From IMG/VR virus record IMGVR_UViG_3300025168_000699, positions 1 to 23,335 of that record: DNA of 23,335 nucleotides. One strand, 5' to 3'. A model generated the notes under the pieces. That model made no database searches. It was not told where the DNA came from and was given only the letters and a program-made list of their open reading frames with translations. Below, piece by piece: positions 5,498 through 22,811 of the stretch (positions within the stretch are counted from its first letter, which is position 1; the number at the start of each line of letters is the position of its first letter). The stretch comes from a virus. The position numbers were made by a program, and so were the translations under genes.

Positions 5498-5561
5498 GGA
5501 AGAAAGAAGGGGCTTGCCAAAGTCTGATAATCATGATATCCTAGCTTCCAAGCGACGAGGA

Positions 5562-5701
5562 CATATATATTATATATATTATATTATATATTAGTATAAG
5601 TTATTTATACTAATTACTAATATAAATAAGATAATAAATATTAATAATAATAATATATTATATAATTATTAATATAGTTATTAATATAATTATTAATAGA
5701 T
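5562..5701. other. A+T-only tract in the divergent region, replication-origin candidate
   Basis: About 140 bases are almost wholly A and T between the leftward and rightward gene blocks. Inside is a perfect 10-bp inverted repeat with a 5-base loop (5590-5599 and 5605-5614, arm ATTAGTATAA) and a 12-bp iteration (5666-5701, listed separately). Easily melted DNA plus short iterated motifs at a divergent junction is the usual look of a phage replication origin. No coding capacity is seen. An alternative is an UP-element-like promoter region. Confidence 0.45.
5666..5701. repeat. Three 12-bp tandem repeats (TTATTAATA core)
   Basis: The nonamer TTATTAATA occurs at 5666, 5678 and 5690 with an exact period of 12 bases. 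The trailing three bases are TAG, TAA and GAT. Exact phasing slightly above one helical turn suggests an iteron-like protein binding array or slippage in A+T DNA. The same core recurs in the second A+T tract before the primase gene. Confidence 0.6.
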
Positions 5702-5728
5702 ATGCGCCGAAAGTGTATTTTATAAAAA

Positions 5729-5757
5729 TTGCTCCGCTAGTGGGGGTACCATAATAT
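5729..5757 (+). promoter_or_regulatory. Weak candidate sigma70 promoter into the repeat region
   Basis: TTGCTC (5729-5734) and TAATAT (5752-5757) are 17 bases apart, close to the T+A tract. Transcripts would run through the 21-bp repeats and hairpins towards the 133-aa ORF. A+T-rich DNA gives chance matches easily, so this is tentative. Confidence 0.25.
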
Positions 5758-5799
5758 ATAATACAAAGCTTTAGATTTTTCCCTACCCCGTCCCTCTGA

Positions 5800-5871
5800 T
5801 AGGTCAGCAGTCCTGCCCTAAATAGGTCAGTGGTTCTGTCCCATATCTAATAGGTCAATGTCACTGTCCTA
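5800..5871. repeat. Three 21-bp direct repeats with internal dyad
   Basis: Units at 5800-5820, 5823-5843 and 5851-5871 each begin TAGGTCA and, at the same internal offset, end CTGYCCYA. Unit starts are 23 and 28 bases apart. Unit 1 is an imperfect palindrome (arms TAGGTCAG and CTGCCCTA, one mismatch), and the other two keep the dyad less well. Multiple degenerate dyads in a row look like an operator array for a phage regulator or an origin-binding protein. No coding frame explains the conservation. Confidence 0.6.
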
Positions 5872-6029
5872 ATCCTGAATCGGATATTCTCCCCAAACAA
5901 CGCAAGATTGTTGCGCGGAATAATGCATTATTTTGTGGACGGCATTCTTGGAATGTGATCTACTTCTAATGTCAGCGACGCCCTTGTGGCAAGCGACTGG
6001 GGGCAGGAACCCAATCCGCCCCAGAGCTT
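5872..6029. other. Non-coding stretch with a series of hairpins (possible structured RNA)
   Basis: No gene is supported here. Several inverted repeats follow each other: CGCAA/TTGCG (5901-5915), the perfect 14-bp palindrome AATAATGCATTATT (5919-5932), CATTC/GAATG (from 5943), CTTG/CAAG (within 5982-5993), and a strong hairpin 5997-6024 that pairs CTGGGGGCAGGA with TCCGCCCCAG (10 bp, two single-base bulges, loop ACCCAA). The G+C content rises abruptly compared with the A+T tract. It could be the leader of the downstream ORF, an ncRNA or an attenuator. Strand is unknown. Confidence 0.35.
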
Positions 6030-6086
6030 ATGAAACTGCAGAGCGGTTTCGCTGACAAACCTTCAAACAATCTTAGGACTAATACT

Positions 6087-6488
6087 ATGTTAAAGCACAG
6101 AATATGGAATAGCGTATCTAATATATTGTTCTCCGATGTTAGAGGCGGGGGACAGAATGGATATCGTAACACCAAGGTCAGAATAGCACTCTCGGCAATG
6201 GTACGGATTGGCTGGATAGAGAAGGGCTGGATTGGCCATTTCGAGAAGACCTTGTGGCAAGATGCCAAACTTATAATAGAGCAGGGCGAGTGGACGGGAA
6301 CGATTTCCGATCTAATGGTTTTCCGGTTCTGGCATCATGTAGCGATAAAGGCTGGTGACGAATACACTAGCCTCGGCGTGAAGTTTCGGCGACAAGCTGC
6401 AGAGCCATATCAGAACGATAGCGTGATATGGTCCAAGTCAGAATTGATTGTTGATAAATCAGCAAGTCGGAAACGTCGCGCAGCTTAA
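6087..6488 (+). CDS. Hypothetical protein (133 aa), unrecognised
   Basis: This is the only sizeable ORF in the divergent region. The frame opens at an ATG at 6030, but the ATG at 6087 has an AGGA motif at 6075-6078 with ideal 8-base spacing, so it is preferred. The protein begins MLKHRIWNSVSNILFSDVRG, is rich in Trp and basic residues, and ends with the basic tail SASRKRRAA. No membrane segment and no family that I recognise. Codon use differs from the neighbours: CGG, CGA, CGC and TTG appear often, whereas adjacent phage genes prefer AGA/AGG and CGT. Either it is a recent arrival, possibly a small DNA-binding regulator, or the frame is open by chance over a structured region. Position alone would suit a transcriptional switch protein. 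Confidence 0.4.
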   Translation: MLKHRIWNSVSNILFSDVRGGGQNGYRNTKVRIALSAMVRIGWIEKGWIGHFEKTLWQDAKLIIEQGEWTGTISDLMVFRFWHHVAIKAGDEYTSLGVKFRRQAAEPYQNDSVIWSKSELIVDKSASRKRRAA

Positions 6489-6509
6489 CAGAGCTTGAAG
6501 GGGCGAGGC

Positions 6510-6539
6510 GGGGGGAGTGTAGAGCAAAGCACTCTCCCC
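6510..6539 (+). terminator. G-rich hairpin, terminator-like
   Basis: GGGGGGAGTG (6510-6519) pairs with CACTCTCCCC (6530-6539) over 10 bp including one G-U, around the loop TAGAGCAAAG. It lies 22 bases after the stop of the 133-aa ORF. What follows is AATTCGTTTG and not a clear T-run, so intrinsic termination is plausible but not certain. The strong pairing and position support the ORF being transcribed. Confidence 0.5.
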
Positions 6540-6554
6540 AATTCGTTTGATCAA

Positions 6555-6632
6555 TTGAGAGAAACAATCATACTGGTCTGGATTGCGGCTTATGCTGCTG
6601 CAATTCTGGCAATGCTTTCAATGGCAATATAG
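6555..6632 (+). CDS. Possible 25-aa hydrophobic peptide
   Basis: A TTG-initiated frame of 25 codons encodes a single hydrophobic helix (RETIILVWIAAYAAAILAM, then LSMAI) and stops at a TAG, with the second G-rich hairpin starting 4 bases later. If translated it would be a one-pass membrane miniprotein. Against it: no good ribosome binding site, a TTG start, and no family known to me. Placement exactly between two related hairpins is the reason it is listed. Confidence 0.2.
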   Translation: MRETIILVWIAAYAAAILAMLSMAI

Positions 6633-6635
6633 GAG

Positions 6636-6658
6636 GGGCGGGGGCGAAAGCCCTCCCC
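6636..6658 (+). terminator. Second G-rich hairpin with GAAA tetraloop
   Basis: GGGCGGGGGC pairs with GCCCTCCCC around a GAAA tetraloop (6646-6649), giving 9 bp with one G-U and one bulged C. It follows the tiny ORF and resembles the hairpin at 6510-6539 in sequence and form. The downstream sequence ACTATTTCCC lacks a proper T-run. Terminator or RNA stability element. Confidence 0.45.
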
Positions 6659-6913
6659 ACTATTTCCCTAGGTGTTTGTTAGTTTCATGACTGCAATCAT
6701 TAGTTATATAGTATCATGACTGCAACCGTTAGAACGATAAGCGCGCATACTATCCAACTCCACAAGGGACAGTAAGCGGGCTTATCAATTTATACTAGTG
6801 TTGCCAACTGTTTACCACAAGATAAGCGTACATATCTTTTTATACAGAATACTCCGCGTCTCTTGTATACAATATGAAATATAAATTAATTGTACTTAAT
6901 CTAAATTAGTGTA
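6659..6913. other. Gene-free control region upstream of the early operon
   Basis: About 255 bases without a supported gene. Besides the TCATGACTGCAA repeats listed separately, GATAAGCG occurs at 6736-6743 and again at 6821-6828, and GCTTATC (6780-6786) is an inverted copy of GATAAGC. The perfect 10-bp palindrome TTGTATACAA is at 6863-6872. All are operator-like sequences shortly upstream of the candidate early promoter at 6914-6943. Confidence 0.4.
6685..6732. repeat. Two 19-bp direct repeats with palindromic core (operator candidate)
   Basis: TCATGACTGCAAYCRTTAG occurs at 6685-6703 and 6714-6732, 29 bases apart and 17 of 19 identical. In the first copy ATGACTGCAATCAT is a near-perfect dyad (12 of 14 symmetric positions, TGCA centre). 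The second copy keeps only half of the symmetry. This is typical of a strong and a weak operator for a dimeric repressor. Confidence 0.5.
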
Positions 6914-6943
6914 TTGACACCTCCCCCATCTACCCCCTACTAT
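6914..6943 (+). promoter_or_regulatory. Candidate early sigma70 promoter
   Basis: A perfect -35 box TTGACA (6914-6919) and a -10 box TACTAT (6938-6943) are separated by 18 bases of C-rich sequence. The first early gene starts 31 bases downstream of the -10 with AGGA at good spacing. This is the most convincing promoter for the rightward early operon and implies use of host RNA polymerase. Confidence 0.6.
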
Positions 6944-6974
6944 CCCCCTAGTTAATCACATCAGGATATAGACC

Positions 6975-16619: not shown

Positions 16620-17122
16620 GCCACGTGTTGAAGCTAACAGACGATGAACTGGCCTACTGTAGAGAGCTAGGAGTGAAGAGGCACATGGCAAAGCACCCAT
16701 CGTTCAGAGAGAAGAGTGTTGTACCTACAAAGCAACTGTACGCTGGTGAGTCCCATGTTCTAGGTATACTAGGTGAGTACGCCTACCATAAAGTTACTGG
16801 CTCTAAGCTAGATGAATGCATCTATCAGAGAGGAGATGCCGGTTATGATTTTGAAGAAGACGGGTCAAAGATAGAGGTGAAGGTCAGCACCTTTGGCCCC
16901 GTGGGTACAGAGTTAAAGATACCAAAGAAAGAATACGAGGAAAGAAAACCAGACCAGTATGTACTTGTTTACGTTAACAAGAACAATCTCAAAGATGTCA
17001 GTGTGCTTGGAAAGATTAGCAGAAAAACCTTTGACAAAAAGAAACGTGAGAAACAGTATGGTCCAAGGTACCCTGTTAATTATATTGTAGGCGCGGAGGA
17101 CCTCGATGCACTGGACGTTTAG
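16616..17122 (+). CDS. Second PD-(D/E)XK nuclease-like protein (168 aa)
   Basis: A fold of restriction-endonuclease type is suggested by E54 (LGEYAYH), D78 (AGYDFEEDG) and E87-V-K89 (KIEVKVSTF), then a strand DQYVLVYVN and further ISRKTF. These match the core of many small phage nucleases (G-E-x-A, then D, then (E/D)-V-K). It could replace T7 endonuclease I as a junction resolvase or be a repair nuclease. The precise role is unknown. The ATG lies inside the stop of the exonuclease gene (ATGA). Cysteines are few, so no Fe-S centre is seen. Confidence 0.7.
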   Translation: MSHVLKLTDDELAYCRELGVKRHMAKHPSFREKSVVPTKQLYAGESHVLGILGEYAYHKVTGSKLDECIYQRGDAGYDFEEDGSKIEVKVSTFGPVGTELKIPKKEYEERKPDQYVLVYVNKNNLKDVSVLGKISRKTFDKKKREKQYGPRYPVNYIVGAEDLDALDV

Positions 17123-17846
17123 AGATGACAAGACTAAGATACCACAGCCTGATGAGTACTTTGGTTTTGTTTATGTAATCAGTAACAAGCTCACCACCAA
17201 GCAGTACATTGGGTGTAAGCAGTACTGGCAGATGCGTAAAAAGAAGAAGCACAAGCCCTCCAATTGGCGTGTGTATACCTCGTCGTCTAAATACTTGAAC
17301 GAGGACATTGACAAGATAGGAAAGAGACGGTTCAAGTTTGAGATCATACAAGAATATAAAACAAAGAGGGGGCTACACTACTATGAACAATACTATCAGA
17401 TGAAGTACCATGTCCTCACCGCTGTTATCGAAGGGACAGATGAGCCAGCTTACTATAACAAGAACATAGGCGGGATCAGGTTTTATGTTCCTCTTGAAGT
17501 TTATGAAGACCCTGCGGTTATAAAGAAAAAAAGTGAAGCGTCCCTACGCAACTGGGCTAATCCTGAGTTCAGAAAGAGACTGAGTAAAAGCCAGTCTAAC
17601 GGTCCTTACAGAATTACCTTTGACACTGGTAGAGAAATTATCGTTGACAGTATGTCAGGGTGGGCAAAAAGTAACGGGTATGTTCATGGTAATCTCTCAC
17701 ATATGGCAAGGGGAAAACCTCAGGTTCAGAAAGATAAACATGGTAAACCTTATAAATTTAAAAGGGCTAAACACAAAGACATAGTAAAGGTAGAAAGACT
17801 GAGTGATGAAGAGGTAGAAAGACTGAGTGATGAAGAGAAGGAGTAG
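17106..17846 (+). CDS. GIY-YIG homing endonuclease with NUMOD-type DNA-binding region (246 aa)
   Basis: The N-terminal domain has the GIY-YIG signature as FVYVISNK (20-28) and KQYIGCKQ (32-39), with basic residues following and a catalytic Glu candidate in HYYEQYYQMK. In the middle, KKKSEASLRNWANPE (about 141-155), then RKRLSKSQ, fits the NUMOD3 DNA-contact motif, and IVDSMSGWAKSNGYVHGNLS (about 179-198) fits a NUMOD1-like helix-turn-helix. No intron is apparent, so it is free-standing and would spread by cutting phage genomes that lack it. A GGAGG site 6 bases before the ATG marks the start. The last codons contain a 24-base tandem duplication. Overlaps both neighbours (17 and 17 bases). Confidence 0.85.
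   Translation: MHWTFRDDKTKIPQPDEYFGFVYVISNKLTTKQYIGCKQYWQMRKKKKHKPSNWRVYTSSSKYLNEDIDKIGKRRFKFEIIQEYKTKRGLHYYEQYYQMKYHVLTAVIEGTDEPAYYNKNIGGIRFYVPLEVYEDPAVIKKKSEASLRNWANPEFRKRLSKSQSNGPYRITFDTGREIIVDSMSGWAKSNGYVHGNLSHMARGKPQVQKDKHGKPYKFKRAKHKDIVKVERLSDEEVERLSDEEKE
17790..17837 (+). repeat. Perfect 24-bp tandem duplication in the homing endonuclease tail
   Basis: Two exact copies (17790-17813 and 17814-17837) encode VERLSDEE twice at the C-terminus. The duplication is in frame and recent, since there is no difference between copies. It also covers the likely start of the next gene (ATG at 17830), moving a GTG/ATG start and ribosome binding site with it. Confidence 0.9.
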
Positions 17847-21556: not shown

Positions 21557-22246
21557 ATGGAAGTTACACTGATAGACCACATGGGCACTGACCTGACAGT
21601 GGTCAACGCTGCCAGAGTTTCCTTCTCCAAGGAATCTGAATGGGAGAGCATCACTCCTGCTGGTCCTGTTAGTAACCTGCTAAAAGAATCAGACGAGAAG
21701 CTTATCAAGTACCTTGCCAAGCACAATCACTGGACTCCCTTTGGCCACTGCTCTGTCTCCTTCAGGATCAAGGCACCCGTCTTTGTGGCCAGACAACTGG
21801 GTAAACATCAGGTGGGTCTGGTATGGAACGAGGTGAGCAGGAGGTACGTGGACTATGAGCCAGAGTTCTACTACCCTGAGTACTGGAGAGGTAGGCCCTC
21901 TGATAAGAAGCAGGGAAGTTCTGAAGAGGAGATTGATATTAATCCTACAGGTTCCTCTGGCCCTGCCATGGTAGATGAGTACCACCATGCCATGAAAAAA
22001 TGTTTATGGACTTATAGACATTTACTAAGGAAGGGGGTAGCACCGGAGATGGCACGTATGGTGCTACCCCAGAGCATGTTGACTGAGTGGTACTGGACAG
22101 GTAGTCTCATAGCATTTAGTAGAGTGTGCTCTCTTAGGATTAAAGAAGATGTACAAGAGGAGACCAGAGACATTGCATCTCTGATAGATGTAGAATGCTC
22201 ACATCTTTTCCCTGTGTCTTGGGAACAACTGATGAAGCTTCCGTAG
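21557..22246 (+). CDS. thyX: Flavin-dependent thymidylate synthase ThyX (229 aa)
   Basis: Converts dUMP to dTMP with FAD, NADPH and methylene-tetrahydrofolate, supplying dTTP for phage replication without the need for a separate dihydrofolate reductase. The N-terminus has VNAARVSF (16-23) and the active region HWTPFGH (58-64). The ThyX signature is present as NEVSRRY (91-97), but the canonical RHR of RHRx7S reads HQV (84-86), after K83. The C-terminal RMVLPQSMLTEWYWTGSL (165-182, approximate) holds the dUMP-binding arginine region. Residues 115-140 form a charged loop. AAGGA is 10 bases before the ATG. The last 10 bases lie within the tRNA-Arg gene. Confidence 0.92.
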   Translation: MEVTLIDHMGTDLTVVNAARVSFSKESEWESITPAGPVSNLLKESDEKLIKYLAKHNHWTPFGHCSVSFRIKAPVFVARQLGKHQVGLVWNEVSRRYVDYEPEFYYPEYWRGRPSDKKQGSSEEEIDINPTGSSGPAMVDEYHHAMKKCLWTYRHLLRKGVAPEMARMVLPQSMLTEWYWTGSLIAFSRVCSLRIKEDVQEETRDIASLIDVECSHLFPVSWEQLMKLP

Positions 22247-22313
22247 CTCAACTGGATAGAGCAACAGACTTCTAATCTGTAGGTTGCAGGTTCGAGTCCT
22301 GCCGGGAGCGCCA
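22237..22313 (+). tRNA. tRNA-Arg (anticodon UCU), CCA encoded
   Basis: A full cloverleaf: acceptor GCTTCCG (22237-22243) with CGGGAGC (22303-22309), D stem GCTC/GAGC with GG in the loop, anticodon stem ACAGA/TCTGT with loop CTTCTAA and anticodon TCT (22271-22273), variable AGGTT, T stem GCAGG/CCTGC with TTCGAGT loop, discriminator G and a genomically encoded CCA. One G-U pair in the acceptor. It reads AGA, a common arginine codon in the phage genes here, so it may supplement the host. The first 10 bases overlap the end of thyX. A phage tRNA may also serve as attachment site, but no integrase is in the window. Confidence 0.95.
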
Positions 22314-22323
22314 ACTTTAAGGG

Positions 22324-22352
22324 TTGAATTTATTAAGAAAGTATGTTATACT
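22324..22352 (+). promoter_or_regulatory. Candidate sigma70 promoter for hsp20
   Basis: TTGAAT (22324-22329) and TATACT (22347-22352) are separated by 17 bases, 11 bases downstream of the tRNA. Predicted transcription start is about 22359, exactly at the first leader hairpin. It allows Hsp20 to be transcribed separately from the long rightward operon. Confidence 0.6.
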
Positions 22353-22359
22353 AGCCACC

Positions 22360-22402
22360 GAGGTGCCGTTCTTGGGCCTCTTAGAACTCGCTGAAAAGGA
22401 GT
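22360..22402 (+). ncRNA. ROSE-like RNA thermometer in the hsp20 leader (candidate)
   Basis: Two hairpins fill the leader. The first (22360-22380) pairs GAGGTGCC with GGGCCTC around GTTCTT. The second (22386-22402) pairs ACTCGCT with AGGAGT around a GAAA loop: six pairs with G22390 bulged out. Its 3' arm is the Shine-Dalgarno sequence AGGAG, 8 bases before the ATG. The 5' arm contains UCGCU, matching the UYGCU motif with bulged G that defines ROSE thermometers upstream of small heat-shock genes. An alternative pairing CTCTT (22378-22382) with AGGAG would also mask the site. Melting with heat would free translation. Function inferred from structure only. Confidence 0.6.
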
Positions 22403-22409
22403 ATAGACT

Positions 22410-22811
22410 ATGATAGCAAAATGGAATAGAGATAGAATGTTAGGAATGGGTGAGCTAGTACAAGCCATGACTAACATAGCATACGAAGACAATTCTTACC
22501 CACCTCACAACATTAACGAGGATAATAAAAACTATACAATTGAACTTGCTCTTGCAGGATGGGAAAGTAAAAACATTTCTGTCTCTGTAGAAAATTCTAA
22601 GCTTACCATAACAGGTAGGTGGAGTGCCGCCAAACCTGACAGCATGTACCACCAAGGTATCTCATCTAAAAATTTTAGTAAAGGTTTTATTCTTTCTCCT
22701 CACCATACAGTGGAGAGTGCTTCACTAAAGAATGGCCTACTGGTTATTGAAATTAAGCACGTCTTACCTGAAGAACTAAAACCAAAGAACATTCCTATAA
22801 AAGAACTTTAG
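22410..22811 (+). CDS. Small heat-shock protein Hsp20 (133 aa)
   Basis: ATP-independent chaperone that holds unfolding proteins. The alpha-crystallin domain spans about 31-118 (PPHNINEDNKNYTIELALAG at 31-50, the strand LTITGR at 65-70, and the G-x-L segment NGLLVIEI at 108-115). The C-terminal I-x-I motif IPI (128-130) used for oligomer assembly is present. Resembles the Hsp20 genes carried by cyanophages and other marine phages, which are thought to help head assembly or stress tolerance. The gene has its own promoter and a leader that hides the ribosome binding site. Its stop interlocks with that of the convergent o-spanin gene (4 shared bases). Confidence 0.92.
   Translation: MIAKWNRDRMLGMGELVQAMTNIAYEDNSYPPHNINEDNKNYTIELALAGWESKNISVSVENSKLTITGRWSAAKPDSMYHQGISSKNFSKGFILSPHHTVESASLKNGLLVIEIKHVLPEELKPKNIPIKEL

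Follow-up and report, generated by a model that had tools for sequence, protein, structure and literature searches.

The leader of about 52 bases in front of the hsp20 gene of the phage studied here very probably is a short two-hairpin RNA thermometer of the ROSE type which controls the translation of Hsp20. The window, the whole stretch of 23,335 nucleotides that was analysed (IMG/VR virus record IMGVR_UViG_3300025168_000699), carries at positions 22410 to 22811 of the plus strand a reading frame for an IbpA-like (class A) small heat-shock protein of 133 amino acids. The assignment as Hsp20 had already been made in a first sequence-only reading and is borne out for this frame, with its start codon at 22410, by a match to the Pfam HSP20 family (PF00011, E 2.8e-13). 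Upstream lies a sigma70-type promoter (22324 to 22352, plus strand), recognised from its sequence TTGAAT-17-TATACT, in which an extended TG precedes the -10 box. It ends 7 bases before hairpin 1, and its predicted RNA start at about 22358–22360 coincides with the foot of that hairpin, as had been proposed for a promoter with 17-base spacing.

Both hairpins of the leader lie on the plus strand and are indicated by folding and by covariation. Hairpin 1 (22360 to 22380) reads GAGGU-[G22365]-CCG(UUCU)UGG-GCCUC and contains a core with the bulged G22365, YGCC...GGR. Hairpin 2 (22386 to 22402), the predicted thermosensor, reads ACUC-[G22390]-CU(GAAA)AG-GAGU and has six base pairs, the bulged G22390 and a GAAA loop when the sequence from 22300 to 22420 is folded. 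Its 5' arm carries UCGCU (22388 to 22392, plus strand), an anti-Shine-Dalgarno motif of the ROSE signature type UYGCU, and all bases of the Shine-Dalgarno sequence AGGAG (22397 to 22401, plus strand) are paired within it. The sequence-only reading had described the Shine-Dalgarno sequence hidden in a six-pair, GAAA-loop hairpin with one bulged G, the facing UYGCU-type motif and a further hairpin 5' of it, all of which were recovered; the bulged-G core, the conserved part of hairpin 1, it had missed. ROSE-like elements are characterised by U(U/C)GCU paired imperfectly to the Shine-Dalgarno sequence in the 3'-most hairpin, by a bulged G opposite the latter, by a 5' untranslated region with two to four hairpins, by non-canonical pairs in the core, by translation that rises with temperature as hairpin 2 melts and, typically though not obligatorily, by a small heat-shock gene downstream. 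In the present element the motif varies between C and U among relatives, G22390 is kept in the window clade and in leaders retrieved by protein similarity, and there are two hairpins, each with covariation, before an hsp20 gene.

When the window leader was shuffled 20,000 times with its dinucleotides preserved, a hairpin with a bulged G sequestering the Shine-Dalgarno sequence arose in 2.7% of the shuffles, and in 0.7% together with UYGCU. The thermosensor hairpin by itself is thus weak evidence. The whole arrangement occurred once per 20,000 shuffles, and it is on this full arrangement and on its conservation that the weight rests.

A search of the whole window with Rfam at the strict cut-off returned the tRNA alone. 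In the 151 bases around the leader, ROSE_3 (RF02523) was the best of 4227 Rfam families, with a full-length match (model positions 1–69 of 69; 22357 to 22415, plus strand) which places the AUG in register and scores 16.5 bits (E 0.22); with ROSE_3 as the single hypothesis across the whole 23-kb record the E value is 0.0079. The comparison with the Rfam ROSE models, proposed as a check in the sequence-only reading, thus singled out the expected kind of family over its full length, but 16.5 bits stand against a gathering cut-off of 43 bits, and the leader is ROSE-like and not a member of RF02523. ROSE_3 fits the short two-hairpin ibpA elements of Pseudomonas. In whole-genome searches the same model matched the hsp20 leaders of Melnitz-3 (34.1 bits, E 1.6e-6, the best score of a phage isolate), C48C1 (26.8 bits), S-SM2 (24.9 bits) and syn9 (17.6 bits). 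Among phage leaders free of the suspicion of host DNA none reached the ROSE_3 gathering score, and no other Rfam family claims them; the phage element is therefore absent from Rfam 15. Several other matches were discarded: STnc450 and SOX2OT on the leader are chance, plastid-ycf2 in relatives is the antisense of the tRNA, a 69-bit ROSE_3 match in 'Pseudomonas phage Y7' (OQ572409.1, L225) belongs to an ibpA of the Pseudomonas type, comes from an unverified record and is probably host DNA, and ibpAB with ROSE leaders in 'Salmonella phage S.Kent 1-2-1' (OR851202.1, L241) is host-type and probably host DNA as well. A covariance model built from 20 other phage leaders with the window excluded (R1) matched the window at 22346 to 22410 of the plus strand with 38.2 bits (E 4.6e-8). 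Over 12 complete phage genomes (about 2.1 Mb) R1 yielded nine matches with E values up to 1, all nine at hsp20 leaders, and missed three of the 12 genomes whose leaders pass the structural parse described below. Over 11 IMG/VR records it gave one match with E <= 7e-4 in each, all others having E > 0.03.

Close relatives are nine IMG/VR contigs whose Hsp20 is 77–100% identical. In L003 and L005–L010 the DNA directly 5' of the leader has been replaced and the leader from CGAGG to ATG has been kept; between the window and L006 45 of 52 leader columns agree, compared with 21 of 74 columns in the 60 bases upstream. Changes within the leaders of the window clade are confined to loop 1, the linker, the Y of UYGCU and the last base or bases before the ATG, and not a single pair is broken. 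The exchange of UCGCU for UUGCU in L004 and L006–L010 is the very degeneracy of the ROSE motif. A tRNA-Arg(tct) gene (22237–22313 of the window) directly 5' of the hsp20 promoter is kept in all nine relatives, at a larger distance in L006–L008. Elsewhere in the window a region of about 1.4 kb between divergent gene blocks (5535–6974) has no convincing gene, its one reading frame of 152 amino acids being without a Pfam match, and a SegE-type GIY-YIG endonuclease (17106–17846, E 1.2e-31), likely mobile, lies in what is a podovirus-like genome.

Beyond this clade, a scan of 2.9 million viral contigs in IMG/VR for the RNA pattern AACTYGCTGAAAAGGAG-N4-9-ATG gave at least 120 matches. Among the matches listed 119 of 120 stand before Hsp20 or before a small reading frame leading to Hsp20, and 106 of the 114 complete reading frames were identified as Hsp20 by phmmer. 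The other eight frames listed are three rubredoxin-like and three phasin-like small reading frames, each followed by Hsp20, a truncated Hsp20 (L027), and L051, an unrelated frame and the single match listed without Hsp20, which also has no hairpin 1. The rubredoxin- and phasin-like frames were rejected as other target genes, as the Hsp20 gene comes next in each case. At these loci (rubredoxin-like L011, L012 and L124; phasin-like L053, L081 and L088) the switch would control a two-gene unit; the related contig L109 is without the insert. The pattern-matched loci listed have widely diverged upstream DNA, yet they repeat hairpin 1 with the core YGCC..GG(R). RNAalifold on 20 of these leaders recovered both hairpins, four consecutive pairs of hairpin 1 being changed on both sides in 8–10 of the 20. 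Since hairpin 2 is fixed by the pattern, it is invariant in the leaders retrieved in this way (L011–L130), which makes them unfit for testing it.

A second retrieval blind to the leader was therefore based on the protein: with an alignment of phage Hsp20, by which 595 of 600 stretches among the matches listed were relatives, 80 loci were fetched. The resulting set comprises 73 leaders, among them those of the window clade, of isolates and of five cellular genes as well as two ibpA controls. Each leader was parsed for a bulged G that follows Y, precedes C and has canonical pairs on either side, for the Shine-Dalgarno sequence in the 3' arm, for UYGCU and for an upstream hairpin with a bulged G. 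In this leader-blind set, drawn from the matches listed, 68 of 73 Hsp20 leaders passed with both hairpins. Control leaders of other reading frames on the fetched contigs passed in 7 of 1440 cases, and all seven proved to be Hsp20 genes which the filter had missed. The protein-retrieved leaders contain the same two-hairpin element with other hairpin 2 sequences, namely UUAUUCGCUUGAAAGGGGAAUAA, UUAUUCGCUUGAAGGAGGAAUAA, ACUCGCUUAAUAAGGAGG and UUUAUUUGCUUAAAAAGGAGAAAUAAA.

Covariation was counted in 43 distinct phage leaders. In mixed alignments MAFFT puts the arms of the hairpins in the wrong place, so they were excised by the structural parse before counting; the parse favours pairing and thereby raises the percentages of paired cells somewhat. 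For hairpin 1 95.9% of the cells are paired compared with 66.7 +/- 1.7% after shuffling (0 of 500 shuffles reaching the observed value), 94 cells are changed on both sides, and compensatory change is seen at six of eight pairs. For hairpin 2, where the count rests on the parsed protein-retrieved leaders, the values are 88.1% compared with 80.6 +/- 1.0% (0 of 500), 30 cells and five of eight pairs. If the partner is shifted by 1–3 columns pairing falls to 37–60%. The covariation of hairpin 1 is safe because the effect is large and the unparsed alignment A4 gives the same outcome. Comparison of related phage hsp20 leaders had been set beforehand as a refuting test, and the outcome is conserved pairing with compensatory change in both hairpins. 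Together with the near-universal occurrence before phage Hsp20 genes and with ROSE_3 as the top family this supports the ROSE-like reading.

The element is also found in cultured phages. All 16 cyanophage isolates examined have both hairpins, those of S-SRM01 becoming visible only once position 332 of L260, instead of 281, is taken as the start. In this phage (NC_070963.1 157104-157155, L260:281-332) the GenBank start of hsp20 lies inside the RNA element, and the first 17 annotated residues (MPKGFTKHKLAFKGDAK) are translated leader, the ATG at L260:332 being the likely start. Both hairpins are present in Melnitz-3, Mosig, C48C1, Ettore and Atu_ph07. Pelagibacter phage HTVC115P has hairpin 2, and its fold gives a hairpin 1 with a bulge which the parse missed as an A precedes the G. 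In the Wolbachia phage WO neither hairpin was found. Of 53 related phage leaders, 50 have a TATAAT-like box that ends 4–7 nucleotides 5' of the foot of hairpin 1, and several T4-like phages have at the promoter position either a motif of the late-promoter type, NATAAATA (Melnitz-3, Mosig, ACG-2014d, ACG-2014f), or TATAAT. Judged from these promoter sequences, the RNA probably starts at hairpin 1 whatever the promoter class.

For the working of such a leader the ibpA gene of Pseudomonas is the closest guide. Its short two-hairpin leader has been established as a thermometer by reporter assays, probing and ribosome binding (Krajewski 2013, PMC3669281). Hairpin 2 alone is enough for thermosensing there, hairpin 1 stays unmelted, and deletion of the bulged G or a stronger neighbouring G-U pair leaves the opening blunted or locked (PMC3669281). 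The computed stability of hairpin 2 is -4.7 kcal/mol in the window, -4.7 kcal/mol in P. aeruginosa-type ibpA and -4.8 kcal/mol in Salmonella ibpA, and removal of the bulge in silico takes the window leader from -14.2 to -18.0 kcal/mol. That the unpaired G is retained in the phage hairpin 2 points to selection for lability and not merely for a hairpin; a flaw conserved in this way argues for selection that maintains the capacity to melt. Fold prediction with ViennaRNA, which the sequence-only reading had named as a further check, shows the Shine-Dalgarno sequence opening on warming, from 3% unpaired at 20 °C to 11% at 40 °C, but only gradually, which is not proof of thermosensing; a sharp switch is absent from the predictions for the Pseudomonas and Salmonella ibpA leaders as well.

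In the mechanism proposed, hsp20 would be transcribed from the foot of hairpin 1 onwards. At the usual temperature of the host, hairpin 2 would pair the Shine-Dalgarno sequence with UCGCU around the bulged G22390, and little Hsp20 would be made. On warming, the imperfect hairpin 2 would melt, ribosomes could bind, and the phage chaperone would be produced, presumably to the benefit of the infection. Hairpin 1 may serve as a stable 5' clamp or folding aid. Its bulged-G core YGCC..GGR is common to the phage elements and those of Pseudomonas (L225:540-565 region) and Salmonella (L241 leader); it recurs there although hairpin 1 does not hold the Shine-Dalgarno sequence.

The main alternative, possible though rather unlikely as the main function, is that the leader is a self-repression operator: free Hsp20 would bind the leader, block its own translation and be titrated by aggregates during infection, in the manner demonstrated for IbpA of E. 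coli, so that temperature would act indirectly. Such a control may coexist with thermosensing. IbpA of E. coli binds and represses its own thermometer leader, for which R93 and an aromatic residue at position 34 are required (PMC10474464), a system with the same kind of leader and protein as the phage one. Most phage Hsp20s have R at the R93 place, at 90% or more in alignment A5, and Y or F at 34. In Pseudomonas, moreover, hairpin 2 alone is enough for thermosensing (PMC3669281), yet hairpin 1 with its bulged-G core has been conserved. The window clade, in contrast, has K at the R93 position (K87 in the window Hsp20) and so is without the required arginine, and the exchange R93K abolished self-repression in E. 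coli IbpA (PMC10474464). C48C1 and Ettore are likewise of the K type, and the element nevertheless persists in their leaders. If the R93 rule carries over to phages, self-repression is gone from the window phage and the RNA switch remains, which would favour heat sensing in the window clade; elsewhere both inputs may act. A wider scheme, put forward here with considerable reserve, would place phage Hsp20 genes, those of T4-like cyanophages included, under a viral ROSE family that reads folding stress by two inputs, melting of hairpin 2 and release of leader-bound Hsp20, perhaps via the bulged-G core of hairpin 1, with heat as the only input in lineages that changed R93 to K, such as that of the window.

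It is improbable that the leader is a constitutive structure which sets the translation level or the stability of the mRNA and senses nothing. A stable hairpin at the 5' end can protect an mRNA, and hairpin 1 lies at the predicted 5' end, but UYGCU, the bulged G of hairpin 2 and the restriction to Hsp20 genes would be left unexplained. A chance resemblance, a G-rich Shine-Dalgarno sequence beside a U/C-rich stretch, can practically be discarded in spite of the 0.7% of shuffles mentioned above, as the rarity of the whole arrangement and the lack of any non-Hsp20 gene among the 1440 controls speak against it and the covariation refutes it.

Taken as a ROSE-type thermometer, the phage element shares with Pseudomonas ibpA ROSE (PMC3669281) the two hairpins, a leader of about 50–60 nucleotides, the UYGCU anti-Shine-Dalgarno motif with a bulged G, a free AUG, a class A small heat-shock gene and the equal stability of hairpin 2. 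It differs in being phage-borne, in scoring below the Rfam cut-off, in the other hairpin 2 forms of its relatives, in the abutting promoter box and in being present in phages of cyanobacteria. The cyanobacterial hsp17 thermometer is a different, single hairpin (PMC4477652). With the classical ROSE elements (Bradyrhizobium ROSE1, ibpA of E. coli and Salmonella) it has in common UYGCU, the bulged G, occlusion of the Shine-Dalgarno sequence and the small heat-shock gene, and the first hairpin of Salmonella ibpA has the same YGCC..GGR core as the phage hairpin 1; the number of hairpins is three to four in the classical elements (PMC3669281) and two in the phage element. The known phage thermometers are lambda cIII, SPbeta blyA (fourU) and that of a Caudoviricetes sigma70 gene (fourU) (PMC11182007), blyA being only the second phage RNA thermometer according to the Robo-Therm authors (PMC11182007). 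Like these, the phage hsp20 element lies in a phage mRNA and would control translation by temperature; they are single cases, non-ROSE and not in front of hsp20, whereas the phage hsp20 element forms a large family. In open-access full text no paper was found that joins ROSE elements or hsp20 thermometers with phages, and in a word search of two papers on cyanophage small heat-shock proteins (one PMC3827213) neither a thermometer nor an untranslated leader was mentioned.

Cyanophage small heat-shock proteins are nearer to bacterial class A than to cyanobacterial ones (PMC3827213). The nearest cellular Hsp20s found are those of marine alphaproteobacteria (OCS116/Rhodobiaceae and a Rickettsiales MAG), which have the same two-hairpin leader. 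As this leader is shared, and the hairpin 1 core is shared with Salmonella, phages probably acquired the gene together with its switch from proteobacteria. In the Hsp20 tree, which does not fix the time or number of entries, the window clade sits on a long branch with no firm place. Hsp20 of the Rickettsiales MAG (NZIN01000044.1, L246) and Hsp20 of Pelagibacter phage Mosig form a group with 99/96 support, and the MAG contig may therefore be phage DNA.

The phage element very probably is of the ROSE mechanism class and forms an extensive branch in viruses which the Rfam models do not cover and which extends beyond proteobacterial hosts. Only a few phage RNA thermometers are known so far, none of which belongs to the ROSE type. 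The present element stands before the Hsp20 gene in nearly all phages checked, which suggests that many phages gate chaperone synthesis by temperature. It further suggests that phages bring a proteobacterial heat switch into cyanobacteria and retain it through exchanges of the promoter, be it sigma70-type or T4-late type. The hsp20 gene is carried by hundreds of phages and recurs in T4-like cyanophages, its role being unsettled, and the old question of why phages carry it is now directly testable in cultured phage-host pairs, with a bearing on the effect of warming on marine infection.
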